Source: Acididesulfobacillus acetoxydans
GTDB taxonomy: Bacteria > Bacillota > Desulfitobacteriia > Desulfitobacteriales > Desulfitobacteriaceae
Assembly (NCBI RefSeq): GCF_902729405.1
Contig: NZ_LR746496.1
Location: 1,116,001-1,180,000, forward strand
Length of the DNA: 64,000 nt
Direction: 5' to 3'
A program made the translations under genes and the position numbers. Under the pieces are notes generated by a model. The model was not told where the DNA came from and made no database searches. It worked only from the letters and a program-made list of their open reading frames with translations. Positions 1,509 to 64,000 of the stretch are shown here, in pieces (positions within the stretch are counted from its first letter, which is position 1; each line of letters opens with the position of its first letter).

Positions 1509-2478
1509 GATCCTCTCTCAATGAACGACCCGTGTGTTTAAGGAAGACATCATCCAAACTGGGTTTGGCCAAAGAGATGCTTTGCACCGGTAAATGCCGC
1601 GTATCCAGCAGGCGCAGGAGAGCGGGCAGCACCTGTTCCCCCTGGCTCAAACGAAGATGGAGAAAATGGTCTTCCGCTTGGGTTTTCTCCGCTGGGGATT
1701 TCTCCGCCAGCAGTGCTTGGGCCTGCCGAGCGGTTTGCTCGCTCGCAAAGCCGAACACCAAGGAATCGGCGCCGATATCGTCTTTCAGTTGAGTCGGTGC
1801 GCCTGAGGCCACGATTTCTCCATTATCGATAATAGCTATGGTATCGCAGAGCTTATCCGCCTCATCCAAATAATGCGTGGTGAGGAGGACCGTGATGCCT
1901 TCGTCGCGCAGGTGCCGGATTTCTTTCCACAAGTAAGCTCTGCTTTGGGGATCGAGACCGACTGTGGGCTCGTCGAGCAGTAAGACGTCCGGATGGTGAA
2001 TCATGCCCAGAGCCAAATCCAGGCGGCGGCGCTGACCGCCGGAATAGCTGAGAGCCCGCCGCTCGGCAAAGGAACTCATCTGAAAGCGGTCGATGAATTC
2101 CAGGGCCCGCTTTGTGGCCGTGACTTCGTCCAGACCGTAGAGCCGAGCTTGCAAGACCAGGTTTTCCAGTCCGGTGGAGAGAGAATCCGTTCCGCCGGAC
2201 TGACTGACATAGCCGATGCACCGGCGTATGTCCTGTTGCTGTGTGCAGAGATCATAGCTGTTGATCCGGGCTTCGCCCGCGCTGGGCAAAAGCAAGGTCG
2301 CCAGCATTTTCTGGGTGGTCGATTTGCCGGCGCCATTGGGACCAAGGAAGCCGAAGATTTCCCCTTTGCCAATCTCCAAATCAATCCCTTTGACCGCTTC
2401 GACTAATTGTTTCTTGCCTTTGGCTTTGGTAATAAAGCTTTTGCGCAGTTTTTTTGTCTCGATGATCGAATTAGACAC
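1495..2478 (-). CDS. ABC transporter ATP-binding protein (DrrA-like)
   Basis: The 327-residue ATPase carries Walker A GPNGAGKST near residue 46, a signature SGGQRRRLDLA near 146, Walker B VLLLDEPTVGLDP near 165, and a switch histidine in TTHYLDEADK. The extended C-terminal region of about 100 residues matches the DrrA/daunorubicin-resistance type that pairs with ABC-2 permeases. The permease gene follows with an overlap, giving a two-gene export operon. The adjacent upstream gene, on the same strand, encodes an EXLDI-type protein, and such proteins often accompany exporter or regulator cassettes. Substrate unknown. Confidence 0.88.
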   Translation of the reverse strand: MSNSIIETKKLRKSFITKAKGKKQLVEAVKGIDLEIGKGEIFGFLGPNGAGKSTTQKMLATLLLPSAGEARINSYDLCTQQQDIRRCIGYVSQSGGTDSLSTGLENLVLQARLYGLDEVTATKRALEFIDRFQMSSFAERRALSYSGGQRRRLDLALGMIHHPDVLLLDEPTVGLDPQSRAYLWKEIRHLRDEGITVLLTTHYLDEADKLCDTIAIIDNGEIVASGAPTQLKDDIGADSLVFGFASEQTARQAQALLAEKSPAEKTQAEDHFLHLRLSQGEQVLPALLRLLDTRHLPVQSISLAKPSLDDVFLKHTGRSLREDHVHG

Positions 2479-2694
2479 AAGATGCCTCCCTCATGCGGAT
2501 TTTTAAGCGTGGGTTGTTTGTCCACTGAGGCCAAGCGGCCAACGCGGATGTCGTTGGCGTGATGCCGTAGGGCTTCGGCTGCGCTTTCCGTAAAAAGCAT
2601 TGGCCTGAAGTATATCATAGCCTTTTGCCTGACGAATCACGGGCGTTGGGTTCACGTGAACTGGAACGGCCTTCGAGGCTAACTCTCGGGTTTT

Positions 2695-3321
2695 CTAAAT
2701 GTCCAGGTCTTCTATCGGGTCGTCGCGTAAGGCTTGACGGGTCGCCTGATACAACTCTTCCGGAACGTGTTCCCCGACTTCTTCGAGAGAGGCATAAATC
2801 TCCAGACGGTGTTCCGCTTGCTCAGACCAATCCTGCCAATCCTTCATTTTGGGATACTCCTTCATGGTGTACTCATCCGAGCGCGGTTTAGCTTGCGGAT
2901 GGTCTTGTTTCCAGGCTTTCCACCATTCTCCCCAGTTCGCGGACTGCCTGTCCCAATCCCAGTCCCAGTTTTTCCAGTCCGAGCCGTCCGAGTACCACCA
3001 CTTGGGATGGCTCGTGATTGAGACGGCAAAGGCCCCTTTAGCTGTTTGGTAAATTTTGTACCACAGTTGTTTTTTTGCGGCGTCGTCGGCGACATGCCCT
3101 TTGGCCAGCAATTTGCCCCAAAATCTCTTGCGGGTGATGGCGACTTTTCCCACCTTGACGATAATCTCTTCTAACCCTTTGGCCCTAGCTTCCGCATTTT
3201 CAACATAACGGCGCAGCGCTCCGGCAATGGTAGCGGACAGATTTTCACCGGCGAGTTCCTGGGCTCGCTCGAAAATCGGTAAATCACCGTCGGAGACATA
3301 AATGGTTTTGTTTGGCATCAT
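2695..3321 (-). CDS. EXLDI-family protein, tryptophan-rich
   Basis: The protein has 208 residues from ATG 3321, which follows AAGGAGGT at good spacing. A longer reading from 3411 has no ribosome binding site. Residues 1-60 (KTIYVSDGDLPIFERAQ, then ATIAGALRRYVE) resemble a ribbon-helix-helix-like N-terminus. A central stretch, about residues 105-145, is extraordinarily rich in tryptophan and aspartate. The C-terminus is DPIEDLDI, matching the terminal EXLDI signature that names the family. Function is not established for the family. Its position behind an ABC exporter pair on the same strand suggests a regulatory or accessory role, which is inference. Confidence 0.6.
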   Translation of the reverse strand: MMPNKTIYVSDGDLPIFERAQELAGENLSATIAGALRRYVENAEARAKGLEEIIVKVGKVAITRKRFWGKLLAKGHVADDAAKKQLWYKIYQTAKGAFAVSITSHPKWWYSDGSDWKNWDWDWDRQSANWGEWWKAWKQDHPQAKPRSDEYTMKEYPKMKDWQDWSEQAEHRLEIYASLEEVGEHVPEELYQATRQALRDDPIEDLDI

Positions 3322-3409
3322 CAATTGACCTCCTTGAGTGCAAGGGGTAAGTGGTCTTACGTGCGAAGAGGCGGACAAGGCGAACTGACTTTCCTTGGCA
3401 TATGATAAC

Positions 3410-3425
3410 ATAGTATACGTATAGA
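3410..3425 (-). promoter_or_regulatory. TATACGTATA palindrome upstream of EXLDI gene
   Basis: A 10-bp perfect palindrome (TATACGTATA, 3414-3423) sits about 90 bp before the EXLDI gene start in an AT-rich patch that also supplies a TATGTT-like -10 on the minus strand. Such a site could bind a PadR- or RHH-type regulator; this is inference only. Confidence 0.3.
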
Positions 3426-3570
3426 ATCAAGCGCCGGCGAACATTTTTTCCGACGCGGGCGTTGTATGCGCAGAGGTGCGGGGCCTGCCTCTTCCTTCAG
3501 GGTGATTTTGCTCAGCGGTACAGCACGGAGGCTCACGAGAAGTACAAACACGTTTGTCGGGGCCCGGTCA

Positions 3571-3630
3571 TGACCAAGAGGCTTAGCCGCCTGCCTCTGG
3601 CTTTGGCCGGCTTTAGCCAGGGGGGAGATT
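3571..3630 (+). repeat. Dispersed repeat copy 1, IS200/IS605-end-like hairpin
   Basis: The sequence ATGACCAAGAGGCTTAGCCG, followed by a CCTCTGGCTT...AGCCAGGGGG hairpin and GGAGATTCAG, recurs at 44401-44462 with about 85% identity. A short imperfect hairpin built on TGGCTTTAGCCA next to a GGGGAGATTCA end resembles right ends of IS200/IS605-type elements. A decayed tnpB fragment occurs at 45.7 kb. No transposase is next to this copy, so it is an orphan end. The rest of the 3322-3901 gap holds the EXLDI promoter area and a 15-bp tandem repeat, with no gene I can support. Confidence 0.5.
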
Positions 3631-3704
3631 CAGAATTGTTCGCCTGTCAGCAGTCACCCTTAGTTTTGTAAGCTGGGCCGCTGCCGTTAAGAGGCAATGC
3701 GGAG

Positions 3705-3785
3705 TGTAGAGTACGGAGGTGTAGAGTACGGAGGTGTAGAGTACGGAGGTGTAGGGTACGGAGGTGTAGGGTACGGAGTATTGTG
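3705..3785 (+). repeat. 15-bp tandem repeat, about five copies
   Basis: The unit GTGTAGAGTACGGAG repeats head to tail about five times. Copies 1-3 have AGAG, later copies AGGG, and the last degenerates to TTGTGTACGGAG. It is noncoding and lies between the dispersed repeat and the 3' end of the deacetylase gene. Confidence 0.85.
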
Positions 3786-3901
3786 TACGGAGAAAGCAGG
3801 CTGGGATTGCGGGAGAATTCCGAGAACGGCAACCTGAGGGTCGAGGATGAGCGAGCGTAAGGGCAGAGCGAGCCTAGAGACTGAATCAGAGCGGTTGGCT
3901 C

Positions 3902-5344
3902 TCAGGCCCCGTTGGCAGCGTCAGCGGAAGAGGGAGAGAAGGAAGGGGGAGAAGAGGGAGACGGGGAAGAGGAAGAAGGAGACGGGGAAGAGGAAGAGGG
4001 AGACGGGGAAGAGGAAGAAGGAGACGGGGAAGAGGAAGAAGGAGACGGGGAAGAGGAAGAAGGAGACGGAGAAGAGGAAGAAGGAGACGGAGAAGAGGAA
4101 GACGGAGACGGAGAAGAGGAAGACGGAGACGGAGAAGAGGAAGACGGAGACGGAGAAGAGGAGGATGGGGACGAAGAGGAGGGTGGAGCGCTTGGCGGCT
4201 TGGCTGTGCTGTCTTTCGGTGCTTGGTTGGGGACTTTGAGATTTGGGTTTTTGCCCTGCGGCCAGATCACAGGGAAGCTGTTCGGGTTGGCCAGGGCTTG
4301 GGGCAAGGAAGCTACACCTAAATTATTCTGGTACAAGATATCGAGCAGCCGGTGAACTTCGCCACTGAGCCCGGGATCCCAATGGAGGAGGATAATGGAA
4401 CCGGGTTGAAGCGGCTGGCTGTTGTAAGTCTGCACGGTATCCCCACTCATGACGGCGTCCCACATGACGACATGCTTGATTCCGGCTTGGTAGACCGCCT
4501 GGCGGACGGAGGTACTGTAATCGCCGTAGGGCGGGCGAAAGAGGGTGGGTGCCGGTCCCAAGGAAGAAAGATAGGTTTCGGCCGTCTGGACCTGGTTTTC
4601 AACCGCCTGAAAGGGGAGCTTGGCCAGATCGGGGTGGGAGAAGGTATGGTTTTCGATAGTGCCCCCGGCGGCTAAAAAAGCCCGCCAATAATCGGGGTGC
4701 TCCTGTGCAGCCTGCTGGATGAGAAAGGCGGTGACTGGCAAGTGCTTTTGCCGCATGAGCTGAAGCAGGGGTTGACTGGGAAACCAGCCGTCGTCAATTG
4801 TTATAAAAACAGCTCGCTCTTTGACCGCCAGGGACCAGATAAGGTCGGCTGTTCCCTTGGCTCCGGTTCCGGGAGAAACGCTGGGGCCGCTTGCGGGTGC
4901 GGGGGCCTGTCCGGGGTCAGGCGAAACGGCGCCGGGAGAAGAGCCGTGGGCAGCGTGGTTTGAAGGTGGAAAATGCGGATTTTGGCCCCGTTTAAGGGGT
5001 GGTACGGGGGCCGACGGATAAGGCGCCTCCGCCGCCGGCGAGGAGGCATTTGGCAGGGAAGAGGCGGAAGTATTCGGAGGGGAGGGGGAGGGAGTCTGCC
5101 CGGAGAGAAAAGAAAAAGCGGAAGTATGTCCCGAAAGAAAAGCGGGCCGGGGCAAGACGAAAAAGGCGAGCGCTCCGGCGAGTAAGGTGGTAGCGGCGAT
5201 GGCGGGAATCACGTAACGTCTGGGCACGAAAGACACCTCGTTTGCATGCCGCGTCTGTCCGGCGATCTTGTTCTTTGAGGCATTCGACTTCCGGCTTATC
5301 GATTCCTCCTTTTTTCGACCGACCGGAGATTCCTTTTTTTGCAC
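3902..5344 (-). CDS. Polysaccharide deacetylase, membrane anchored, Ser/Pro-rich tail
   Basis: The protein is a NodB-fold (carbohydrate esterase 4) deacetylase acting outside the membrane, likely on peptidoglycan or another N-acetylated glycan. A single hydrophobic anchor (VIPAIAATTLLAGALAFFVL) lies about 45 residues in and is followed by a Ser/Pro/Ala linker. Catalytic motifs are visible: FITIDDGW (metal Asp pair), HTFSHPDL (metal His pair) and FRPPYGDYS. The last ~90 residues are about eleven SPSPSSS heptads encoded by a 21-bp minisatellite, resembling a cell-wall-spanning stalk. Starts are uncertain: GTG 5344 follows GAGGGGAG closely, while TTG 5407 extends it 21 residues without a ribosome binding site. 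Confidence 0.82.
   Translation of the reverse strand: MQKKESPVGRKKEESISRKSNASKNKIAGQTRHANEVSFVPRRYVIPAIAATTLLAGALAFFVLPRPAFLSGHTSAFSFLSGQTPSPSPPNTSASSLPNASSPAAEAPYPSAPVPPLKRGQNPHFPPSNHAAHGSSPGAVSPDPGQAPAPASGPSVSPGTGAKGTADLIWSLAVKERAVFITIDDGWFPSQPLLQLMRQKHLPVTAFLIQQAAQEHPDYWRAFLAAGGTIENHTFSHPDLAKLPFQAVENQVQTAETYLSSLGPAPTLFRPPYGDYSTSVRQAVYQAGIKHVVMWDAVMSGDTVQTYNSQPLQPGSIILLHWDPGLSGEVHRLLDILYQNNLGVASLPQALANPNSFPVIWPQGKNPNLKVPNQAPKDSTAKPPSAPPSSSSPSSSSPSPSSSSPSPSSSSPSPSSSSPSPSSSSPSPSSSSPSPSSSSPSPSSSSPSPSSSSPSPSSSSPSPSSPPSFSPSSADAANGA
3957..4175. repeat. 21-bp minisatellite inside deacetylase gene
   Basis: Ten or so head-to-tail copies of a purine-rich 21-mer (plus strand GGAGACGGGGAAGAGGAAGA-type units) encode the SPSPSSS heptads on the minus strand. 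Units fall into two blocks, GACGGGG-type then GACGGAG-type, as expected from repeated slippage or unequal crossing-over. Confidence 0.9.
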
Positions 5345-5626
5345 TTTCTCCCCTCGCGGGGATAGCCTGTTTGAGTCTTGGCAAGATCTGCCCGACAACG
5401 GGGGCAAGAGACGATGAGGCAGGAATCAGGCAGGGAGCATACGGGGACGGGCGGCCTTCGGACTGCTTCTGTACTTTGAATTGACCGGCGTGACCAAGAG
5501 CGCCGTCCAACGAAAAAGGATCGCGGCAGTATGGAGCGCAGCCGGCGTGCAGAGTATAATGGGAAGTGAAAAAATTGTGGGGGCCAGGTTTCCCTAGTCG
5601 GGTGAAGAGAGCGGGGGGATTGGGCA

Positions 5627-6046
5627 TTGGCATTTCTTGACCGGAATCTTGAACTATTCGAGATTCTCTTTAGGCAATCTTATAGGCAACTTTATCTCAT
5701 TGCCTTTTCAATAACCGGTGATAAAGAGCTCAGCGAGGATGCTGTTCAGCAGGCCTTTGCCCAAGCGTATGTGAAAATGAATCAGCTTAAGGACAAAAGC
5801 AAATTCCTGGCCTGGGTCACGGCTATCACTGTGAATCAGGCCAAAGATCTAGTCAAGTCTGCCAGGCGCCACAAGGTTATACCCATAACCGACGACATGC
5901 AAACGGCCGGCCTGCAGGATTCGCTGGAACAAACTTATTTGCTCAAGGACGAGGTGGCACATGTTCTCAAGGTTTTGTCAGAAGATGAGGCGCAGATTTT
6001 AGAGGTTGTGGACCGGCGTGAGGGATTTGCCGCGGCCGTGTCTTGA
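5627..6046 (+). pseudogene. Truncated ECF-type RNA polymerase sigma factor
   Basis: The 139 residues start with TTG after a GGGGGGA site. Residues 10-95 match sigma-70 region 2: LFRQSYRQLYLIAFSITGDKELSEDAVQQAFAQ is the helix pair that binds core polymerase and the -10 element. The family is normally 160-190 residues with a region 4 helix-turn-helix. Here the sequence breaks off at VLSEDEAQILEVV, exactly where region 4 begins, and the neighbouring frames do not continue it. Without region 4 it could not recognise a -35 element, so I call it a decayed gene. A short functional variant cannot be excluded. The polymerase-binding half looks well preserved. Confidence 0.6.
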
Positions 6047-6079
6047 CACCCGAACGCGAGTAGGCTACACTAGAATAAA

Positions 6080-6352
6080 CTTCATAGGCAAAGGCGATGA
6101 CAGAGTAAAGTAGACGACAGGCGGATTTTCAGGGAGGAAGGGTCGCTGACTGGAAGCCCTTCTAAAAAAGCGGTGGTTGAAGTTCCCTCTTGAGCTGTCG
6201 GCTGAACAAAAAAAGTAGGCTGGAACGGTTCTTCCCCGTTAAAAGGAAGAGGGTATCGGATTGTCTGTCCCGTACCTTTAGTGAGTGGGCATTCTTTGCC
6301 AATCAGGGTGGTAACGCGAGCTTCTCGTCCCTTAGGGATGAGGGCTTTTTTT
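6080..6352 (+). ncRNA. T-box riboswitch 1 (pheA leader)
   Basis: The T-box core AGGGTGGTAACGCG lies at 6305-6318 and is immediately followed by a terminator hairpin (GCTTCTCGTCCC / GGGATGAGGGC, then T7) ending at 6352. Upstream, GGCGATGACAGAGTAAAGTA at about 6093 looks like the start of stem I, and a candidate TTC (Phe) specifier sits at 6183-6185. The T-box U that pairs with the tRNA discriminator A suits tRNA-Phe. Uncharged tRNA would stabilise the antiterminator and allow transcription on into the second leader unit and pheA. Confidence 0.85.
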
Positions 6353-6399
6353 GTCCTATCGGAACGTATAACTGTTCCGCAGGATTAAGGATAAGTTAC

Positions 6400-6600
6400 T
6401 TGCGTCAGCCGTCTCGCAGGGGCTCGCCGCCTGTCGGGTTCTCTTCAGCCCGGTTAGAAGGTATAAGTGGGATTAGGGCAGAAGCGCGGACCGGCACATT
6501 CTGTACCCTAGTGAGCGGGCCATTTTCGGGCCAAATTGGGTGGTAACGCGGAAGTCCACGGCTTTCGTCCCAGAGGGGAACAGCCGTGGGCTTTTTATTT
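6400..6600 (+). ncRNA. T-box riboswitch 2 (second antiterminator/terminator unit)
   Basis: A second TGGGTGGTAACGCG (6537-6550) is followed by a strong terminator with stem CCACGGCT/AGCCGTGG and a T-rich tail at 6555-6600. Only about 185 nt separate it from the first terminator, less than a full stem I, II and III set. Either this unit has a shortened stem I or it arose by partial duplication. GTGAGCGGGCC just before it parallels GTGAGTGGGCA in unit 1. Tandem T-boxes are known to sharpen the response to tRNA charging. Confidence 0.75.
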
Positions 6601-6693
6601 GTTTGGGCTAGCAGCGGCGCGCCGCCGGGGAACGCGTCGGACAGCCAAGTATCGAAGCGAAAGAAAGGCAACGCTAAAGGAGGTCGCTTCGCC

Positions 6694-7557
6694 ATGGAAG
6701 GGGCAAAGATTGGTTATTTGGGCCCTCGGGGGAGTTTCTCGGAAGAAGCTCTGTTGTCATTTCTGCAACGGGGAAACGGAGACTTCCGGGGTGTTTCTGC
6801 GGAGGGCTTTGCCACGATTGCTCAAGCCATCCATGCTTGTGGGGAAAAGCGGGTTGATTGGGCTTTTGTGCCGCTGGAGAACTCGACCGAAGGTCAGGTG
6901 AGCATGACCTTAGATTGTGTCGCGGAAAGGGAGGAACTCCTTATTTATGAGGAATTTGTCCACCCCGTGAGCCAGTGCCTTCTTACTTTACGGCCGCTGG
7001 GATTTGAGCAAATTCGGCGGGTCTATTCCCATCCGCAGGGGTTCGGCCAGTGCAGGGATTTCCTGGAGACTCATTTAAGCCAGGCCGACCAGACCGTTTG
7101 CCGAAGTACCGCGGAGGCAGCCCGAATCGTGGCCGAATCGGACCAAGCCTGGGCGGCCATCGCTCCTCGGCGGGCGGCGGATTTATATGGCCTGCAATGT
7201 TTGGAGCAGGGGGTCCAGGACAACAAGGACAATACTACCCGTTTTATCTTAGTGGGCCATTGCTTGCGCGAATTGTCCGGGCTGGACAAGACGTCTCTTT
7301 TCATGCGCATCGAGGACTCCCCGGGTTCACTCTGCCGGATGCTGCAGGAGTTTGCCAGCCGTGGGATTAATCTGACTAAAATTGAATCCCGCCCGGCGAA
7401 GGGAAGGCTGGGAGAGTACGTCTTTTTTGTCGATGTGGACGGCTACGTTTTTGCGCCGGAGATGCAGGAGGCCCTCTGGGCATTGAAAAAGAACCGGGTC
7501 GCCATCCGGCTGTTGGGGTCATATCCGAGGCAGATGGACATTGATGAATCACGGTAA
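6694..7557 (+). CDS. pheA: Prephenate dehydratase
   Basis: This 287-residue enzyme converts prephenate to phenylpyruvate in phenylalanine biosynthesis. ATG 6694 follows AAAGGAGGT, whereas the upstream in-frame codons lie in the T-box terminator. The N-terminal catalytic domain begins IGYLGPRGSFSEEAL, carries VPLENSTEGQV, and has the catalytic TRF motif in DNTTRFILVG near residue 180. A C-terminal ACT domain (SLFMRIEDSPGSL, then GINLTKIESRP with the ESRP effector motif) provides feedback binding of phenylalanine. There is no chorismate mutase domain, so this is the monofunctional form. The tandem T-box leader controls it. Confidence 0.95.
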   Translation: MEGAKIGYLGPRGSFSEEALLSFLQRGNGDFRGVSAEGFATIAQAIHACGEKRVDWAFVPLENSTEGQVSMTLDCVAEREELLIYEEFVHPVSQCLLTLRPLGFEQIRRVYSHPQGFGQCRDFLETHLSQADQTVCRSTAEAARIVAESDQAWAAIAPRRAADLYGLQCLEQGVQDNKDNTTRFILVGHCLRELSGLDKTSLFMRIEDSPGSLCRMLQEFASRGINLTKIESRPAKGRLGEYVFFVDVDGYVFAPEMQEALWALKKNRVAIRLLGSYPRQMDIDESR

Positions 7558-7741
7558 AAGGTGGTAAAATGTATAGGGCTTTAGCGAGATTACTGTCGGG
7601 ATATGGCATCAGATCGGACCCTTCGGTATTCTTGATGTGACATGGCTTCGTTTGACCATAGAGTACCGTTGGACCGATTGACGGCAATATTGGGAATCGT
7701 CTAACATGCCGCCTTGAGTATCGTTGAAATGGGGGTATAGC

Positions 7742-9127
7742 ATGCATATCGCATTCCGGAAAATTATGCTCATCAACCCGCCCGCGTCGCTGCGCCTTTG
7801 GGAGCCGCACAGCGAAAATCTTGGCCTCGGTTACTTGGCTGCCGTTCTTGAGCAGTTGGATTACCAGGTGAGTATCCTTGACGCGTCGCTTTTCCGGCTC
7901 GGTGTGTCCGCGACGCTGAAACGGATTCGGGAGGAACAGCCGGATGTTATCGGTTTTCGCCTGCTCGAAGTCAATATGCCCTACTTCGTCGACCTGGTGG
8001 TCCAGCTGCGGCGCGGGGGTTACTCCGGGCATATCACGGCGGGCGGACCGGTCGCCACAATGATGGACTCGGAGATTCTTAAGTTAGTCCCGGGGCTGGA
8101 CAGCCTCATGGTCGGGGAGGGCGAAGAGACGCTGCCCGAGCTGCTGGAGGCGCTCAACTTGTCAGGTACCGCCAGGCCCTCCGGAGAACGCTTGGCGGGG
8201 ATACTCGGCCTGTGTTACCGTGAAGGCGAAGCGAGCCGGAGCAACGGACCCCGCCCTCTCATTGAAAATCTCGACGCGCTGCCTTTCCCGAGAAGGGACA
8301 CGCTGCCAGATATCCTCAGGTGGGGACGTCTGCCCATGATCATTTCCTCCAGGGGGTGTGACGGGCACTGTATCTTCTGCTGTCCGGCTGCAATGAACGC
8401 CAAATCGCCCGGGCCCAAGTGGCGTCCGCGCAGCGCCGGCAATGTCGCAGACGAGATCGAGGATCTGCAAAGACGTTACAATGTGGATCATCTGGATTTT
8501 CTGGATGACAATTTCTTCGGACGCGGTGAGGTGGGAGTACGGAGAGCCTGGGATTTCATCGAAGAACTGCGCCGGCGCGGTTTACGGATCCAGTTTTCGA
8601 TCGAGTGCCGGGTCGACAACGTGGAGGAAGACCTCTTTAAGGCCTTGCGTGACGCCGGGTGCGTAGAGGTTCGCTTGGGCATTGAGTCAGGTGTGCAGCG
8701 TATCCTTGACCGCTACGGCAAAGGGACGACCGTGGAGAAAAACCGTGAGGTTTTACTTAAACTCAAAGAGTGGGGCCTGGCGGCTAAAATCGGATTTATC
8801 CCGTTTGACCCGACGATGTCTGTCGAGGAACTGATGCAAAACGGGGAATTCTTGCGCTCGGTGGGTAACCCCGAAGCTTTCAACTATAACAAGATCGTGG
8901 TGGAGGTTGGGACTCCTTTGGAACGCTTGTTTGAGAAGGAGGGGCGTCTGATCAAACCCGGGCCGTGGAAGCGCGATTACACGTTTGACGACCCGAAGGT
9001 AGCCGTTTTGTGGAAATTGGTCCGGGGATATGCGACGGCGAAGCGGACAGCCTTACAGCTCGCTGATGGGTGCAAAGTAGGGTTGACAGACTTCCAGGCG
9101 TCGCTTCACAGGCAAAGCGTCAGATGA
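7742..9127 (+). CDS. B12-binding-type radical SAM protein
   Basis: The 461-residue protein has an N-terminal cobalamin-binding-like Rossmann region (residues 1-150: IMLINPPAS, NLGLGYLAAVLEQ, HITAGGPVATMM) and a radical SAM core with the CDGHCIFC cluster motif near residue 205. ECRVDNVEEDLFKALRDAGC and RLGIESGVQRIL are the usual strands of the SAM barrel. It should bind a [4Fe-4S] cluster and S-adenosylmethionine; substrate unknown. ATG 7742 follows a GGGGG site; TTG 7724 is less likely. It is monocistronic between pheA and a strong terminator. The cobalamin ligand histidine motif is not obvious, so B12 use is uncertain. Confidence 0.8.
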   Translation: MHIAFRKIMLINPPASLRLWEPHSENLGLGYLAAVLEQLDYQVSILDASLFRLGVSATLKRIREEQPDVIGFRLLEVNMPYFVDLVVQLRRGGYSGHITAGGPVATMMDSEILKLVPGLDSLMVGEGEETLPELLEALNLSGTARPSGERLAGILGLCYREGEASRSNGPRPLIENLDALPFPRRDTLPDILRWGRLPMIISSRGCDGHCIFCCPAAMNAKSPGPKWRPRSAGNVADEIEDLQRRYNVDHLDFLDDNFFGRGEVGVRRAWDFIEELRRRGLRIQFSIECRVDNVEEDLFKALRDAGCVEVRLGIESGVQRILDRYGKGTTVEKNREVLLKLKEWGLAAKIGFIPFDPTMSVEELMQNGEFLRSVGNPEAFNYNKIVVEVGTPLERLFEKEGRLIKPGPWKRDYTFDDPKVAVLWKLVRGYATAKRTALQLADGCKVGLTDFQASLHRQSVR

Positions 9128-9147
9128 GCAGCTGTCAATATGATACC

Positions 9148-9182
9148 AAAAATACGATCGCCCAAAAGGCGGTCGTATTTTT
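9148..9182 (+). terminator. Rho-independent terminator after radical SAM gene
   Basis: A 15-bp stem AAAAATACGATCGCC / GGCGGTCGTATTTTT with loop CAAAA is A/T-bounded on both sides, so it can end transcription in either direction. The 9183-9500 stretch after it holds no gene I can support. Confidence 0.85.
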
Positions 9183-9505
9183 GAGATATCTACACAAAAG
9201 TTTCATTTTTTTTGAGATAGTACGCGATTATTGGCTATGGTGAGAAAATTGGCGGGAATCGATAATAACTGATAGAATTGTATCGAAAATGTATTTCGAG
9301 GACTTCCAAGAGGATGAAAGGCTGGAAAAGGCCGTGTTCAGGAGTGAGGTTCGTCAGATGTCCATGTTTGGAGAGGCGTAGGTGAGAGGGTGTTGGCGCA
9401 AACGCCAGACTAGACAACAGCCAAAAGGACAAGCTATGTAAGATTCCGCTTGTCTTATGCCAAAAATAATAATAATATGGTTGGGTAAGATTTTTGGACT
9501 TTCAG

Positions 9506-9546
9506 CCCGCTCAACTCTCATCCCGACAAGCTGAGAGTTGAGCGGG
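9506..9546 (+). promoter_or_regulatory. 15-bp perfect hairpin in resB leader
   Basis: Stem CCCGCTCAACTCTCA / TGAGAGTTGAGCGGG with an 11-nt loop ends 40 nt before the resB start. No U-run follows, so it is not a typical terminator. It may be an mRNA-stabilising or regulatory stem, or the operator of an unknown regulator. Confidence 0.5.
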
Positions 9547-9586
9547 GGTAGACTTTGGCTGGCTTCAAGTTGAAGGAGACGTGAAT

Positions 9587-10879
9587 ATGGAAAGAGAAAC
9601 GCGCACCGGATGGGGTCTGGTGGAAGAATGGCTGACATCCATGAAGTTGGGATTGGTTCTCCTGGGGATCATTGCCATCACCGCCGGCCTGGGAACTTTT
9701 ATTCCGCAATTTGATCAAAGTCCCCAAGAGGCCCTCAAGGTGGCACAACTCTGGCAAACGCTGGGGTTTACGCAGATTTACAGTACATTCTGGTTTCGTT
9801 TTTTGCTGGGCTTACTGTGCTTGAACCTGGTGGCCTGCAGTCTCCGCCGCTTTCACGGGATTTACGGGCGGGTTTTTCGGCCCCGTCCGCCGGGGACTGC
9901 GGGGGAGCTGCCCGCCAAGATCCGGACGGAGATCAGGGGCGATTATCATGTCCTGCAAGACTCTGTGCAGAGAACCCTGGCACATAAAGGATTTCGCCTG
10001 ACGGAGCAGGAGACGGAGACCGGCTGGTCTTTTTTGGGCCTGCGCCGGCGTTGGGGCTATTGGGGTTCCTTCGTGACCCACATGGCTTTTGTCATTTTGG
10101 TACTGGGTGCCTTTATGAGCAGCCTCCTCGGCGCCAAAGGGTATTTCATGGTCGGTGCGGGGAGTACCCTGTCGCTCCAATCGATCATGACCGAGGGCAG
10201 GGTTGGCCAGAATTTCAATGTGCGGGTGAATTCGGCGGAAAAGAAGTACCTGCCGAACGGGCAACTGGATAACTGGTATACGAATTTGAGCCTGATCAGC
10301 CTGGGCGGGCGCGTGTTGGTACGGAAGACAATCTCGGTCAATCATCCCTTGACCTACAAGGGAATCACTTTTTATCAGAGCGATTATACGAGCGGGGTGC
10401 GTCTTACTGCCGACGTGCGGGGGAGCAAGCAAGAGGTCCTCTTGAGCGAACAGAGCGACTATTACAATGTCCCGGGGACAGAACTTTATTTTATGGTGGC
10501 CCAAATTGCGGGAAGTGAGCAAAAGCCTCAAATGCTCTATGGGGTTTATAACAATAATGGTCAGACCGTGCAGCAGGGAACGCTCAGTAAGGGCCAAACG
10601 GCCAGTATCCAGGGAAAATACAAAATGACTCTCGATGGCTATGCTCCGTTTACGGGCATACAGGTCAAGAAAGACCCGGGTGTGGGGGTGGTCTGGCTGG
10701 GTTCGGCCCTGCTTCTGGTCGGGCTGTTTCTCTCGTTTTATTGGCGGCCCTCCAGGGTGGCTGGGGTGCTCAGCCGCGTGGAGGAGACGGAGGAAGGAAT
10801 TTTGGCTCTGGGGATGACCGCGGGAAAAGACACGGAAAGTTTCCTGAGTAAAATGAGAAAATCAAGCGGGGACGTCTAA
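9587..10879 (+). CDS. resB: Cytochrome c biogenesis protein ResB
   Basis: The 430-residue membrane protein belongs to the ResB/Ccs1 family of system II cytochrome c maturation. With CcsA it moves heme across the membrane and attaches it to apocytochromes. The N-terminus has the family hallmark LTSMKLGLVLLGIIAITAGLGTFIPQ (TM1), TM2 FWFRFLLGLLCLNLVACSLRR, TM3 near residue 165, a large extracytoplasmic domain (residues 195-360) with HPLTYKGITFYQSDY, and a last helix near 370-390. ATG 9587 follows AAGGAG at 8 nt; GTG 9581 is too close. It is paired with ccsA 190 bp downstream. The triheme cytochrome at 60.5 kb is a plausible client. Confidence 0.93.
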   Translation: MERETRTGWGLVEEWLTSMKLGLVLLGIIAITAGLGTFIPQFDQSPQEALKVAQLWQTLGFTQIYSTFWFRFLLGLLCLNLVACSLRRFHGIYGRVFRPRPPGTAGELPAKIRTEIRGDYHVLQDSVQRTLAHKGFRLTEQETETGWSFLGLRRRWGYWGSFVTHMAFVILVLGAFMSSLLGAKGYFMVGAGSTLSLQSIMTEGRVGQNFNVRVNSAEKKYLPNGQLDNWYTNLSLISLGGRVLVRKTISVNHPLTYKGITFYQSDYTSGVRLTADVRGSKQEVLLSEQSDYYNVPGTELYFMVAQIAGSEQKPQMLYGVYNNNGQTVQQGTLSKGQTASIQGKYKMTLDGYAPFTGIQVKKDPGVGVVWLGSALLLVGLFLSFYWRPSRVAGVLSRVEETEEGILALGMTAGKDTESFLSKMRKSSGDV

Positions 10880-10882
10880 GCC

Positions 10883-11030
10883 GGGAAGAGAAGAAAGCTA
10901 AAGCTAGGGAGAGAAAAATGTTTAAGGCGGGGAGAAAAGAAAGTCTAAGCCGAGATGGGGAGAAGTTTAAGCTGGGTAGAGAAGAAAGTTTGAGTCGAGG
11001 AGAGAAGAGAGTTTAAGGGAATAGGGGATC
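10883..11030 (+). repeat. Purine-rich imperfect repeats between resB and ccsA
   Basis: Four or five degenerate copies of a roughly 30-nt unit built on GGGGAGAAAAGAAAGTTTAAG lie between the two cytochrome-maturation genes. No open frame or hairpin is convincing. The G/A-only bias makes a polypurine tract on the coding strand. Confidence 0.6.
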
Positions 11031-11065
11031 CGGCAAGAATTTGGGCCGGGCAGAGGAGGTTGACC

Positions 11066-12052
11066 ATGAGTCAAATACTGAAAGGGTTTGAAGGGCCGTT
11101 ATTTTACCTGCTGCTGGCGGCGTATGTCCTCGCGACGCTGCTCTATTGGGGCGGCGCGCTTGGGAAAAAGAACGGCCTGAGCCGGGCCGCCACCTGGGTT
11201 ACGGTGGCCGGTCTCGTCATCAATACAGTCACCGTGGGGGTGAGGATGCTGATTGCCCACCGCCCTCCGCTCGCCAACGGGTATGAGTTCATTCTGACAT
11301 TCTGTTGGGGTATCGTGGCGGTTTATCTTTTTGCCGAATTCCGTTACAGGCTGCGAGCTTTGGGTTCGTTTGTCCTGCCTGTTCCTGCCTTGCTCCTGCT
11401 CTTTGTTGAGATTGCCATCAGTCCGGCGGAGAGGAGCTCGACGGCGATTATGCCGGCTCTAAAAAGCCAGTGGCTGACCATCCATGTCGCCACCGCCATG
11501 CTGGCTTACGGAGCTTTTGCGGTTTCTTTCGGCTTGGGGGTCATGTATCTGCTCAAAGAGCGTAAGATCCGGGTGACCGGACGTGTGGGCGGGCCGGTTC
11601 CCGGCGCTCCCGGAGACGCTGAGCGTGAGACCATGTCGGCGGCGGAGAGTTCAGCGACTGGAAGTTTGCTGGCCGGGTCAGAGTTGTCAAACGGGGCCGA
11701 CGAGGTGAACGGGGGCGTACTCGCTCGCTTTCCCGCTCTTGAAGTTCTCGATGAACTGGCTTACAAAGTCGTTGCTTTTGGGTTTCCTCTGCTTACCCTC
11801 TGCATTATTACAGGGGCCGTGTGGGCTAATTATACTTGGGGAACTTACTGGTCCTGGGATCCGAAAGAGACTTGGTCCCTGATTACCTGGCTGGTTTACG
11901 CGGGCTATCTCCATGTCCGCTTTACCCGGGGGTGGAAGGGCAGGCCGGCTGCTTGGCTGGCGGTGCTCGGCTTCGCAGCGGTGCTCTTTACATTTTTCGG
12001 GGTCAATTATTTTCTGCCGGGCCTTCATTCCTACGCGAATCCCGGCGGGTGA
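11066..12052 (+). CDS. ccsA: Cytochrome c assembly protein CcsA/ResC
   Basis: This 328-residue polytopic membrane protein is the heme-handling partner of ResB in system II. The diagnostic tryptophan-rich WWD segment WGTYWSWDPKETWSL lies near residue 260. Conserved histidines of the family are at IAHRPPLANGYEF (near 70), TIHVATAMLAYGAF (near 145) and GYLHVRF (near 285). ATG 11066 follows GAGGAGG. A charged hydrophilic loop of about 60 residues (near 175-230) separates the two hydrophobic halves. It ends an apparent resB-ccsA operon. The thioredoxin ResA is absent from this locus. Confidence 0.93.
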   Translation: MSQILKGFEGPLFYLLLAAYVLATLLYWGGALGKKNGLSRAATWVTVAGLVINTVTVGVRMLIAHRPPLANGYEFILTFCWGIVAVYLFAEFRYRLRALGSFVLPVPALLLLFVEIAISPAERSSTAIMPALKSQWLTIHVATAMLAYGAFAVSFGLGVMYLLKERKIRVTGRVGGPVPGAPGDAERETMSAAESSATGSLLAGSELSNGADEVNGGVLARFPALEVLDELAYKVVAFGFPLLTLCIITGAVWANYTWGTYWSWDPKETWSLITWLVYAGYLHVRFTRGWKGRPAAWLAVLGFAAVLFTFFGVNYFLPGLHSYANPGG

Positions 12053-12216
12053 CAGCGCGGTTCAAAGTACTGGAACATTGCCGTGGCGGGTACGAGTGAG
12101 ACGGTGAGGCGGAGCGGCGGAGCGGAAGATATCGGAGTCATTAGGCACATGGCGGATAACATGGCGCACTTGCTCAACCGGCTCAAGGAATGATTGGCGG
12201 ACGGCCGCGTGCCTTA

Positions 12217-12848: not shown

Positions 12849-13156
12849 GGCCGCGCCGGTAGGTGATATGGCGCAGGAGAGCGAATGGTGCGCATATGAT
12901 AATGTGCCACGCTTGTGCATTTCCAAGTATCCCTCAGTTGACAGGGAGGAAGCAGGGGACTATAATCAATTTCAGATATATTTAGATGTTTAGCTAAGCA
13001 AAGAACGGTGTAATTACACGAGAGCCGGAAAGGCAGTGAATCCCGGGGAGTTCTAAATTTGTGAGACATCCAGTGTATGGGGACATCCGATATGTGGGGA
13101 GATCTAATGTATGGCGGCATCAAAATGAGGCGACGCGAGTGACTTCGGGAATTGGC

Positions 13157-13200
13157 AAGAGTGGCCTAAGGAAGTCACAAGAGTGGCTGAAGGAAGTGAT
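13157..13200 (+). repeat. 22-bp direct repeat before sdpR
   Basis: Two adjacent copies of AAGAGTGGCNNAAGGAAGTN (13157-13178 and 13179-13200, 18 of 22 identical) end four bases before the sdpR ATG. The second copy supplies the GGAAG ribosome binding site, so it may be an autoregulatory operator. SdpR-type proteins are known autorepressors. Confidence 0.5.
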
Positions 13201-13204
13201 AAGA

Positions 13205-13507
13205 ATGACCAAACAGCAGTCTACTTTCCAGGCCCTGTCCGATCCCACCCGAAGACGGATTCTTCGCTATTTGCGGGAAGGGGATCTGACCGCAGGTGAA
13301 ATTGCAGCCAAGTTTACGATTACTAAGCCCAGTATTTCGCACCATCTTAGTATCTTGAAACAGGCTGACCTAATTAGTGACCGCCGCAGTGGGCAAAATA
13401 TAGTTTATTCCTTGAACACCACGGTTTTCCAGGATATCCTTAAATGGTTTGCGGATTTCTTAGGGACGGAAGGGCCTGGGGGCGAAGGGCAAAAGAAAGG
13501 GAAGTAG
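13205..13507 (+). CDS. sdpR: ArsR-family autorepressor SdpR-like
   Basis: The 100-residue winged-helix protein reads FQALSDPTRRRILRYLREGDLTAGEIAAKF, then TKPSISHHLSILKQADLI (recognition helix) and a beta-wing DRRSGQNIVYSL. It lacks the CVC metal site of true ArsR proteins, as expected for SdpR. In Bacillus, SdpR represses the sdpRI immunity operon and is sequestered at the membrane by SdpI. Here the sdpI homologue follows directly, but no sdpABC toxin genes are visible, so the pair may protect against foreign toxin. Confidence 0.85.
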   Translation: MTKQQSTFQALSDPTRRRILRYLREGDLTAGEIAAKFTITKPSISHHLSILKQADLISDRRSGQNIVYSLNTTVFQDILKWFADFLGTEGPGGEGQKKGK

Positions 13508-60462: not shown

Positions 60463-61413
60463 ATGAATGAAAAACGGTGGATCCTGTTCACGACGGCGTT
60501 TTCAGTAGTGCTGGTTTCGGGCTTGCTGCTGTCAGCGCCGAAAATGGCCGAGGCTGCCTGCGGCGCCTCGACATCCTCCTGCAAAACCTGCCATGAGGTG
60601 CAAGGCAAACTGCCGGTCAATCAAAAAGGGGCTTGGCACACGCAACACGCTTTCGGAGATTTCTGTCAGGCTTGTCACCTGGGGAACGCTTCGGAAACAG
60701 ACATGACGAAGGCCCACGTGGGGGTGATCAAAAATCCCCTGACAGAACCCAGTCAAACCTGCGCATCCTGTCACCCCTCGAACACTGCGGCTATGGTGGC
60801 CAAGTACGGGGGTTCGGCAGGGAGTTCCGGCCCGACCGGTTCGACTCCGGCTTCCGGAGGTACTTCTGCCCCGGCTGCCGGGAGTTCTTCGACTCCGGCT
60901 TCCGGCAGTGCTTCTTCACCGTCTCCGGCCGCGACTCAGGTACCGGCAGTGTCCCAGCCGGGAGCCGCTCAGACTTCGCCCAGCGCAAATCCGAATTTTG
61001 ACGTTATCGATTTTAATAAGAACTTTCAGAGCCCGGTTTCGCTCTGGACCATTGTCTTCGGTTTAGTGGACTTAGTAATTCTTTTGGCCTTGGCGGTTTT
61101 GCTCTGGCGTTGGTGGAAGGGAGTTTGGTTGTGGCAGTACTTGAAACCCAGGAACGCGGGTGAGCACCTGGTTAATCTCAAACGTGAGTCACCGGAGATT
61201 CGGGACATTTTCTATAAACTGCGCGATTGTGAGCCTGAGACTGTGACAGCCGTGGCAGCGCTCTTGAACCGGGGACGCGAGGGACAAAAATTGCTGCGGA
61301 CGGTTGCCGGACTATCCCCGGAACTTCTGGACAAACTTCAAGGTCTGCCGGAAACGGACCTGGACCTGATTGTCCGCCTCAGTAAAGCCGTACGTTCTAA
61401 GGAGGGACGCTAA
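60463..61413 (+). CDS. Membrane-anchored triheme cytochrome c
   Basis: The 316-residue exported protein has signal peptide ILFTTAFSVVLVSGLLLSAP, three CxxCH heme sites (CKTCH near residue 43, CQACH near 68, CASCH near 101), a long Ser/Pro/Gly/Ala linker (residues 115-180), one membrane helix (VSLWTIVFGLVDLVILLALA, about 193-215) and a cytoplasmic domain of about 95 residues. Distal histidines (HTQH, H near 88) could be axial ligands. It would pass electrons between the membrane pool and the adjacent oxidoreductase. First gene of the sulfur cassette. Confidence 0.85.
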   Translation: MNEKRWILFTTAFSVVLVSGLLLSAPKMAEAACGASTSSCKTCHEVQGKLPVNQKGAWHTQHAFGDFCQACHLGNASETDMTKAHVGVIKNPLTEPSQTCASCHPSNTAAMVAKYGGSAGSSGPTGSTPASGGTSAPAAGSSSTPASGSASSPSPAATQVPAVSQPGAAQTSPSANPNFDVIDFNKNFQSPVSLWTIVFGLVDLVILLALAVLLWRWWKGVWLWQYLKPRNAGEHLVNLKRESPEIRDIFYKLRDCEPETVTAVAALLNRGREGQKLLRTVAGLSPELLDKLQGLPETDLDLIVRLSKAVRSKEGR

Positions 61414-61414
61414 G

Positions 61415-61942
61415 ATGATTCATGCAGCCATGAAAAAGAAACTTTGGTCGCCCTGGGCGGCTGGTTTTGTGCTGGGATTAACCTGTGTGGCTACCTATGT
61501 TCTGGCCAATACCACGATAGGTTCTTCAGGCGGACTGGAAAGCATAGACAGCATCTTGGGCAAAGCGTTCCGTTTGCCCTGGGCCAATACTATGTATTTC
61601 CGTTTTCAAATGCCGCCGGTGATCACTTTTCAAATGATGCTCTTCGTAGGCATGCTGTTGGGGTCATTCGTGTCGAGTAAGTGGTCCCATGATTTCAAAC
61701 TGAGAGTGATGCCTGAACAGGAATGGAGCCAGAATTTCGGTCCGAGCAAACTGAAACGTTGGGGCATGATGTTCCTGGGCGGGGTGATCATTGAATATGC
61801 GGCTGGGATTGCCGGAGGATGTACCAGCGGCTTGGCGATTTCGGGTTCGATGCAGCTGGCGCCGGCCGGGTTTATCTTTATCGTCGGCTTATTTATATCC
61901 GGAATCATTACGACCAAAATTCTCTACGGGAGGAATTACTGA
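61415..61942 (+). CDS. YeeE/YedE-family transporter, first half-protein
   Basis: The 175-residue membrane protein has four or so helices and the family motif AAGIAGGCTSGLAISGSMQL, where Cys136 is the conserved substrate-handling cysteine of sulfur/selenium YeeE/YedE channels. ATG 61415 follows AAGGAGG. Its stop TGA overlaps the ATG of the next gene (TGATG), so the two halves are made together and probably assemble as one transporter. In TsuA-type relatives such cysteines relay thiosulfate across the membrane. Confidence 0.88.
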   Translation: MIHAAMKKKLWSPWAAGFVLGLTCVATYVLANTTIGSSGGLESIDSILGKAFRLPWANTMYFRFQMPPVITFQMMLFVGMLLGSFVSSKWSHDFKLRVMPEQEWSQNFGPSKLKRWGMMFLGGVIIEYAAGIAGGCTSGLAISGSMQLAPAGFIFIVGLFISGIITTKILYGRNY

Positions 61943-62553
61943 TGGAAACTTATGTGATTCCGATCTTGCTCGGATTTTTCTTTGCTCTTACTTTGCAGAA
62001 AGCGGGATTGGGGCATTACCACAAAATCGTGAATCAGTTTCGCTTTAAAGACAACACGATTATGAAATATATGCTTACAGGGATTTCCGTGGGTTTGGTG
62101 GGGCTTTATCTCCTTAAGGATCTGGGCGCTCTCAAACTGGATGCCGTAAGCTCAACCTATATCCTGGGTAATCTGGTCGGAGGTTTGATCTTCGGAGTCG
62201 GCATGGCCATGGCCGGCACCTGACCGGGCACATTGATCACAGGTTGTGGTCAAGGAAATCTCGATTATCTCATCCCCGGCCTTTTGGGATTTCTCACGGG
62301 GGGCGTCCTCTTCGGTGAGACCTATCAATCGTTTTTCCTGAAGATCTCGACCTATGCGTCTTACGGACAGAAGACGCTCGGCGAGTTGCTTGGAGTAAAC
62401 CATTGGCTTCTCATTTTCATTGTCGTGGGAGGTACGCTCATTTTCTACCTGGCGAGCAAAATCAGCGAGAGCAAGCAGAGGCGGACGGTTACGGTGAAAG
62501 AACAACAGGCGGCCGGGAGCGGACAGGTCCGGGAGAGCGGAACTTCTGCCTGA
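61942..62553 (+). CDS. YeeE/YedE-family transporter, second half-protein, predicted selenocysteine at residue 94
   Basis: Read through TGA 62221-62223 the protein has 203 residues. N-terminal part: four helices ending in GGLIFGVGMAMAGT; then TGA; then PGTLITGCGQGNLDYLIPGL with two further helices and a charged tail. Family members have a cysteine between AGT and PGT (CPGT motif), so the TGA sits exactly at the conserved Cys, implying selenocysteine. The frame stays open 109 codons beyond, codon use is unchanged, and a SECIS-like hairpin follows at 62233. ATG 61942 follows GGGAGG. The alternative is a recent nonsense mutation. Confidence 0.78.
62221..62253 (+). promoter_or_regulatory. Candidate bacterial SECIS element
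   Basis: TGA is followed by nine bases and a perfect 9-bp stem TTGATCACA (62233-62241) / TGTGGTCAA (62245-62253) closing a GGT loop. The loop begins 19 nt after the TGA with G in the first two positions, matching the known bSECIS rules (small apical loop, early G, about 16-37 nt from UGA). SelB recognition would be required. Confidence 0.75.
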
Positions 62554-62569
62554 AAGGGGGACAGCGAAG

Positions 62570-64000
62570 GTGCCAAAAATCTACACGTGGGATCAACTCT
62601 TTAGCAGAAGACAATTTATCAAGGGCGGACTGGCGGCGGCCGCGTTTGGCGCAGCGGCGGGTTCCGGGCTGCTTCAGCCGAAGCCGGGTTTGGGAGATGC
62701 CCAGAGTACGGTGACATCCACGTTGAGCGGGACTAAATACGTCTACACCATCTGTGAACAGTGTGTCTGGCGCTGCGGTGTCATTGCCCGGGTAGAGAAC
62801 GGGGTGGTGCGCAAACTGGAAGGAAACCCGGATCACCCGAACAATGCCGGTAAACTCTGCCCGCGCGGCAACGCCGGAATCGAGACTTTATACAGTCCGA
62901 GCCGGGTGAAGTTTCCCTTAATCCGCGCCGGTGCCAGGGGAAGCGGCCTGTGGCGCAGAGCCTCCTGGGATGAGGCTTTAACTTATACGGCCGGGCAGAT
63001 GAAGAAAATCAAGGACAAATACGGTGCCAAGGCTATGATCTTCAACTCTACGGATAACTTGTCCCAACCGTTCTTTGAGACGTTGCTAAAAGCTTACGGA
63101 ACCCCCAATTACGGAACCCAACGCAGTCTCTGCTTCAATTCCATGACCACAGGCTTTCTCTACACCTATGGAGTTGCTCAGCCGGGGACAGATTATGCCA
63201 ATTGCAACTATATGATTTTCTCGGGCCGTAATTTGGCGGAAGGAATCTCCAACATTGAAACTCAGGAAATGATTGACATGGTGGCCCGCGGGGCCAAAGT
63301 GGTGGTGCTTGATCCGCGCTTCACGAAGACGGCGGCCAAAGCGGAGTGGCTGCCGATCCGGCCGGGAACCGATTTGGCTTTTTTCCTCGCCTTAATCAAC
63401 GTCTTGGTCAACGAAAAGCTCTATGACGTCAAGTTTGTCTCCCAGTACACTCAGGGATTTGATGAATTGACCAAGGAAGTGGCCACCTATACCCCCCAAT
63501 GGGCTGAGGTTCAAACGGAGATTCCGGCGGGAACGATTCGCCGGATTGCCCGGGAATTCGCGGCCAGTGCTCCGGCGGCCATTGCCCATCCCAATTGGCG
63601 CACCTCGAACTTCCTGAATTCTTTCCAGGCGGAACGGGCTATTGCCGTGCTCAATGCCCTGGTGGGGAACTGGGCCAAGCCGGGAGGACTTATTCCGGAC
63701 CAGTCTATCAATACGGCCAAGCTGGGGACCCTGTCTCATCCCTCTTATCCGGCGGCGGTAGGCATGCGTTTGGACGGAGTGCCCTGGCAATTTCCGATGG
63801 TGCCGCTGGCTTACGGTGTCCTGCAAGTAATGAGGGACAATATTCTCACGGGCAAGCCTTATCAGGCTAAGGGCTGGCTTATCTCCCGGCAGAACCCGGT
63901 ATTGTCGATTCCGGAACGGCAGAAGACGATCAATGCCATAATGAAATTGGATTTCATAGGGGTCATCGACATTATGGCGAATGACACCGCCTATTATGCC
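62570..64000 (+). CDS. Thiosulfate/polysulfide reductase-type molybdopterin oxidoreductase, partial
   Basis: The reading starts at GTG 62570 after GAAAGGGGG and continues past the window end (477 codons visible). A twin-arginine signal (SRRQFIKGGLAAAAFGAAAG) exports the folded enzyme. A [4Fe-4S] cluster motif C62-x2-C65-x3-C69-x27-C97 and the molybdenum ligand Cys188 in SLCFNS are characteristic of the PsrA/PhsA group of the DMSO reductase family. Other conserved elements are FSGRNLAEG, VVLDPRFTKTAAKAEWLPIRPGTDLAFFL and HPNWRTSNFLNS. It should reduce thiosulfate, polysulfide or a related oxyanion outside the membrane, with partner subunits beyond the window. Confidence 0.9.
   Translation, partial: MPKIYTWDQLFSRRQFIKGGLAAAAFGAAAGSGLLQPKPGLGDAQSTVTSTLSGTKYVYTICEQCVWRCGVIARVENGVVRKLEGNPDHPNNAGKLCPRGNAGIETLYSPSRVKFPLIRAGARGSGLWRRASWDEALTYTAGQMKKIKDKYGAKAMIFNSTDNLSQPFFETLLKAYGTPNYGTQRSLCFNSMTTGFLYTYGVAQPGTDYANCNYMIFSGRNLAEGISNIETQEMIDMVARGAKVVVLDPRFTKTAAKAEWLPIRPGTDLAFFLALINVLVNEKLYDVKFVSQYTQGFDELTKEVATYTPQWAEVQTEIPAGTIRRIAREFAASAPAAIAHPNWRTSNFLNSFQAERAIAVLNALVGNWAKPGGLIPDQSINTAKLGTLSHPSYPAAVGMRLDGVPWQFPMVPLAYGVLQVMRDNILTGKPYQAKGWLISRQNPVLSIPERQKTINAIMKLDFIGVIDIMANDTAYYA

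Follow-up and report, generated by a model that had tools for sequence, protein, structure and literature searches.

We analyzed a window of 64,000 nucleotides from the genome of Acididesulfobacillus acetoxydans (contig NZ_LR746496.1, positions 1,116,001 to 1,180,000), and found a probable selenoprotein gene on its forward strand at 61942-62553. From its PF04143 match, an alignment with Spirochaeta thermophila YeeE (StYeeE) and its retention in relatives, the gene is predicted to encode a 203-residue protein with selenocysteine (Sec) at codon 94, which would form the N-half-like subunit of a split YeeE/TsuA transporter (the Sec-half). The sequence holds a conserved UGA in place of a cysteine, a selenocysteine insertion sequence (SECIS) hairpin, the sel genes, two transporter halves, and a conserved gene cluster. 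Judged from these, it is almost certain that the UGA is decoded as Sec, directed by the downstream hairpin.

The frame opens with the ATG at 61942 and is closed by the TGA at 62551-62553. Its single in-frame TGA is codon 94 (62221-62223, forward strand) in the context AGT-TGA-PGT, and the 109 sense codons downstream stay open and are family-like. The Sec-half matches PF04143 over profile positions 10-162 (E 1.4e-23, 84.4 bits, above the gathering score of 27). Residues 6-183 of the solved Spirochaeta YeeE align with it, and codon 94 falls on Cys91; the Cys/Sec column in homologues marks it as the equivalent position. The first-pass annotation had placed the TGA at the cysteine of a CPGT motif and had read family sequence through the 109 codons, and both points were confirmed, the latter by the reading frame and the PF04143 match. 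Purifying selection was detected both upstream and downstream of the TGA. A protein in Peptococcaceae bacterium CEB3 is 90% identical to the Sec-half; a search of a plasmid collection gave distant matches only.

To describe the distribution of the TGA, relatives, the class and the phylum were searched, and the scan of the codon-94 column demanded a following PG. The column contained 25 distinct sequences with TGA and 29 with TGC or TGT, and no codon of another meaning. In every homologue aligned, the position is cysteine or TGA, the cysteine belonging to a CPG motif, which is the outcome that the first-pass annotation had proposed to look for. The 25 TGA sequences span six families of the phylum and fall into two groups. 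Group I comprises the own genus, Desulfosporosinus and one genome of another family, with the motif UPGTLITGCGQGN. Group II comprises four further families, with UPGTCVAGGG or a similar motif. TUPGT is found here and FUPGT in the second Sec clade. The Desulfosporosinus assembly UBA5188 (L025, L050, L070) carries a TGC orthologue within the same operon. When the Sec/Cys residue was masked, a protein tree called for a minimum of three Sec/Cys changes, and well-supported branches force two of these; this was a quick tree, in which the direction of the changes was not set. Since independent assemblies likewise carry the TGA, the codon is not a sequencing error, and the doubt that resequencing might show TGC or TGT is answered.

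The codon is followed by a bacterial SECIS hairpin (62233-62253, forward strand), identified by synonymous constraint, compensatory pairs and the fit to the bacterial SECIS model. The stem pairs 62233-62241 with 62245-62253 around a GGT loop (62242-62244) and begins 9 nt past the TGA. The perfect 9-bp hairpin described earlier was correct in its nine pairs, its GGU loop and its 9-nt start, but not all pairs are Watson-Crick: the stem has eight of these and one U.G wobble (62237.62249). This wobble, between nucleotides 17 and 29, is invariant in 21/21 distinct aligned hairpins. The hairpin alone has an energy of -8.4 kcal/mol, and its loop lies 18 nt from the UGA. The published bacterial criteria are a loop of 3-9 nt, a stem of 4-16 bp, a G within loop positions 1-2, a distance of 16-37 nt from the UGA and an energy of -7.5 kcal/mol or lower (PMC13188914). 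The hairpin passes every one of these, and the size, spacing and loop G claimed earlier hold against published values.

When the stretch was recoded synonymously under local codon usage, 1.4% of the recodings reached the hairpin energy. However, the 45-nt stretch folded alone was unremarkable (z = -1.9), and the single-sequence hairpin is only mildly unusual. The case is carried by comparative evidence. Across the seven codons from +4 to +10, the group I sequences have a mean codon entropy of 0.28 bits, versus 1.29 bits for 80 other conserved codons (Mann-Whitney p = 3.3e-5). In group II, the inner stem occupies the same nucleotides with other letters, and 5/9 pairs are changed on both sides. 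Paired cells amount to 93% in the true register versus 30-59% when the partners are slid by 1-3 bases; since the aligned hairpins are related, shuffle controls overstate the significance. RNAalifold recovered the same seven inner pairs. Covariance folding, suggested earlier as a check, thus supports the hairpin, and the alignment indicates that two divergent Sec clades keep the stem via compensatory changes. An Rfam search at the site gave nothing meaningful, which is no evidence against a SECIS.

The genome carries tRNA-Sec (anticodon TCA), selA, selB and selD, so that all four genes named in the first-pass annotation, selC included, are present. The selD frame also contains a TGA, and a hairpin comes after it at about the same spacing. 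selA was found in 19/19 other Sec-form genomes tested, and no selA match was obtained in three Cys-form genomes (G052, G363, G455).

Two side observations concern the hairpin region. The Cys form of G052 (L028 / L071; TGT) keeps a full 9-pair SECIS-like hairpin, including the same U.G pair, with an energy reached by 0.4% of synonymous recodings; the genome is 83% complete. It is possible that this is a fossil SECIS left after a Sec-to-Cys loss, or a chance product of GC-rich sequence. Furthermore, an extra cysteine lies near Sec, at +8 in group I (Cys102, 62245-62247) and at +4 in group II (Cys98; L096-L101). A cysteine at +4 or +8 occurs in 25/25 Sec forms versus 1/29 Cys forms. A role as a resolving thiol is possible; in group I, the cysteine may instead be a side effect of the SECIS stem. 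Because the Cys102 codon is inside the stem and there are only 2-3 independent contrasts, we note the resolving thiol and do not claim it.

The preceding gene (61415-61942, forward strand) encodes a C-half-like YeeE subunit, which matches PF04143 positions 170-309 (E 1.7e-17; 64.4 bits). It overlaps the start codon of the Sec-half by one base, it adjoins the Sec-half in the Sec loci examined, and these two genes are the only PF04143 matches in the genome. Its Cys136, in GGCTSG, lies in the region matching StYeeE Cys293. The two halves very probably pair into one YeeE-like pore. The first-pass annotation had proposed a Sec-containing YeeE/YedE transporter. The Sec form is upheld by the conserved TGA, the SECIS and the sel genes, but the gene encodes only half of the transporter.

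For the thiosulfate transporter YeeE/TsuA of Spirochaeta thermophila (PDB 6LEO, 8J4C, 8K1R), a cysteine relay and a transport function have been published (PMC11073785). The system described here is homologous, Cys91 corresponding to Sec94 and Cys293 to Cys136 of the partner. It differs in that two genes are present, in the order C-half then N-half, and in that Sec replaces Cys. In addition, the cytoplasmic third cysteine, Cys22, is Gly24 in the Sec-half, and no YeeD partner was seen in the cluster.

Contrary to the first-pass annotation, which knew of no Sec form of this family, a predicted Sec YeeE/YedE protein is already listed in entries of two reviews (PF04143, motif GUxSG, WP_012471001.1; PMC9312934, PMC13188914). 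As here, Sec stands for a conserved family cysteine and the protein is known solely from its sequence. Compared by motif, it differs from TUPGT/FUPGT, and the review entries describe neither an operon nor a split architecture. Split YeeE/YedE + DUF6691 pairs are also half-size proteins with a CPG motif and about 34-38% identity, but these matches are Cys forms without selenocysteine; the DUF6691 label is the annotation of one distant homologue. The YTD cluster of sulfur disproportionation (yedE, tusA, dsrE) similarly ties a YedE-like gene to inorganic sulfur energy metabolism (PMC12998232). In contrast, tusA and dsrE are absent from the cluster here, and the neighbours are PhsA-like, FeS, NrfD, Rieske and cytochrome genes.

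The cluster begins with a cytochrome c with three haem sites (three CxxCH motifs) and a membrane segment (60463-61413, forward strand), whose position is conserved. The Cys half and the Sec half follow, and then a PhsA-like molybdopterin oxidoreductase with a twin-arginine-like leader (NCBIfam PhsA; PF00384, PF04879, PF01568), which starts at 62570 on the forward strand and runs past the window end at 64000. The cluster lies at window positions 60463-64000 and at 2464-12071 of locus L066, in which the PhsA-like protein has 735 residues. The order continues with an FeS protein, NrfD, a Rieske protein, cytochrome b, a small membrane protein and an ExtM-like multihaem cytochrome. This order was seen in the group I Sec loci whose flanks were long enough and in the majority of group II, and an almost identical cluster is present at the Cys-form locus L127 (G382). 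Because the same gene occupies the same respiratory cluster in many related bacteria, we regard the observation as real. The cluster shows kinship with thiosulfate reductase as well as with part of the ext operons for selenite/tellurite. Its NCBIfam scores were all below the curated cut-offs (PhsA 591/694, ExtP 236/290, ExtM 137/800). Therefore, we treat it as a distinct quinone-linked cluster, which looks like an unnamed respiratory complex. Thiosulfate, sulfur and selenate serve A. acetoxydans as acceptors, and the species is also able to disproportionate both sulfur and thiosulfate (PMC8982180).

From these features, we infer Sec incorporation, pairing of the halves, transport, a substrate and coupling to the reductase, as follows. 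The UGA would be read as Sec via the hairpin to give the full-length half-transporter, which would combine with the partner encoded just before it into a single YeeE/TsuA-like pore. The substrate would be thiosulfate or another sulfane-sulfur carrier, with a selenium analogue possible; sulfur rather than selenium is favoured with fair confidence. The sulfur compound may pass Cys136 of the partner first and Sec94 second, Sec94 acting as the more nucleophilic, more fully ionised relay residue. By general selenium chemistry, a Sec in a relay would ionise at a lower pH and be faster with sulfane sulfur. The pair would serve the neighbouring quinone-linked, probably periplasmic PhsA-like reductase/cytochrome complex, either to deliver or to remove the sulfur compound that it consumes or makes, and this coupling is somewhat likelier than its absence. 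We give the whole chain a probability of roughly 0.6.

Several results weigh against this proposal. As to the hairpin, L013 and L097 are without the loop-closing pair, and the stem of L099 (G191) is weak. As to the transporter, the TsuA models NF052577 (53.4 bits, cut-off 400) and NF041049 (46.9 bits, cut-off 645) did not reach their cut-offs with this half-length protein, and the three-cysteine TsuA relay is incomplete: the first station, Cys136, and the second, Sec94, are present, but the third is Gly24. An AlphaFold model (15 rows) had a pLDDT of 69 and no usable fold match in the PDB, and was left unused. As to the surroundings, the cluster contains no TusA/YeeD-like partner gene, and the Sec locus L122 has the YeeE pair without the PhsA, FeS and NrfD genes.

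It is also conceivable, although unlikely, that Sec insertion does take place but the substrates of the pair are selenium or tellurium species and not sulfur, either for import toward selenoprotein synthesis or in the respiration of selenium oxyanions. For the neighbouring cytochromes, the closest models are ExtP and ExtM, from the operon for selenite/tellurite reduction; selenate is respired by A. acetoxydans (PMC8982180), and comparative genomics ties YedE relatives to selenium metabolism (PMC9312934). However, the Ext scores fall under the curated cut-offs, and the molybdoenzyme is nearest to PhsA, a thiosulfate reductase. The selenium YedE models TIGR04112 (18.6 bits, cut-off 200) and NF033796 (26.4 bits, cut-off 350) scored below both their cut-offs and the 53.4 bits of the TsuA model. 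Moreover, this operon also exists with Cys forms, and further Cys forms are present elsewhere in genomes that lack selA.

Still less probable is that the pair, instead of transporting, acts within the reductase/cytochrome complex as a membrane subunit for sulfur relay or sensing, in which Sec would form a selenenylsulfide with Cys102, or with Cys98 in the other clade. The restriction of the nearby cysteine almost entirely to Sec forms, the strict linkage to the redox cluster and the missing third relay cysteine would fit such a subunit. Against it, the place of the Cys102 codon in the stem may by itself account for why clade I conserves it, the independent contrasts are few, and the family precedent is transport (PMC11073785). 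Finally, standard gene calling ends at codon 94, but that the TGA truly terminates translation (through a pseudogene, a sequencing error, or a short product plus a re-initiated fragment) is highly improbable given the 25 distinct TGA sequences from separate assemblies, the downstream selection, the SECIS constraint, the read-through Cys orthologues and the sel genes; on the conservation of the TGA across assemblies, we reject a pseudogene or sequencing error.

Another split YeeE with an in-frame TGA was observed in ten genomes of the phylum (L162-L166, L168-L172; G228, G195, G159, G211, G440, G421, G288, G312, G264, G302). Here the TGA is in the C-half, in YG-UGA-NIG, at the Cys293 (first relay) position, and the Cys homologues of this GUNIG family read GCNIG. 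Codons +6 to +10 and +12 to +14 are invariant in 10/10 sequences, as a SECIS would demand; the predicted folds are individually non-significant. selA was found in 10/10 of the genomes.

If this is true, YeeE subfamilies differ in which of two relay stations carries Sec. To our knowledge, Sec in the conduction path of transport proteins is rare among selenoproteins, which are mostly redox enzymes. We consider it an even question whether split YeeE gained Sec repeatedly, at the second (UPGT) and first (GUNIG) stations, so that Sec tunes chalcogen transfer through membrane pores generally and serves here as a dedicated, unnamed part of an anaerobic sulfur/selenium respiratory complex. The Sec-YeeE kind itself was already predicted; the split UPGT form, its operon and the GUNIG family at the first relay position are new. 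Since natural Sec/Cys pairs exist in the same operon and a solved homologue has a numbered relay, the chemical role of the relay residue is directly testable. Because standard gene calling breaks the gene at codon 94, the transporter will likely be missed or called a pseudogene in many sulfate-reducing Bacillota.

Just past the cluster, at 12923-13378 and 14088-14576 of L066, two small proteins that resemble each other are encoded, both with CxxC motifs and a helix-turn-helix-like part. They are possible regulators.
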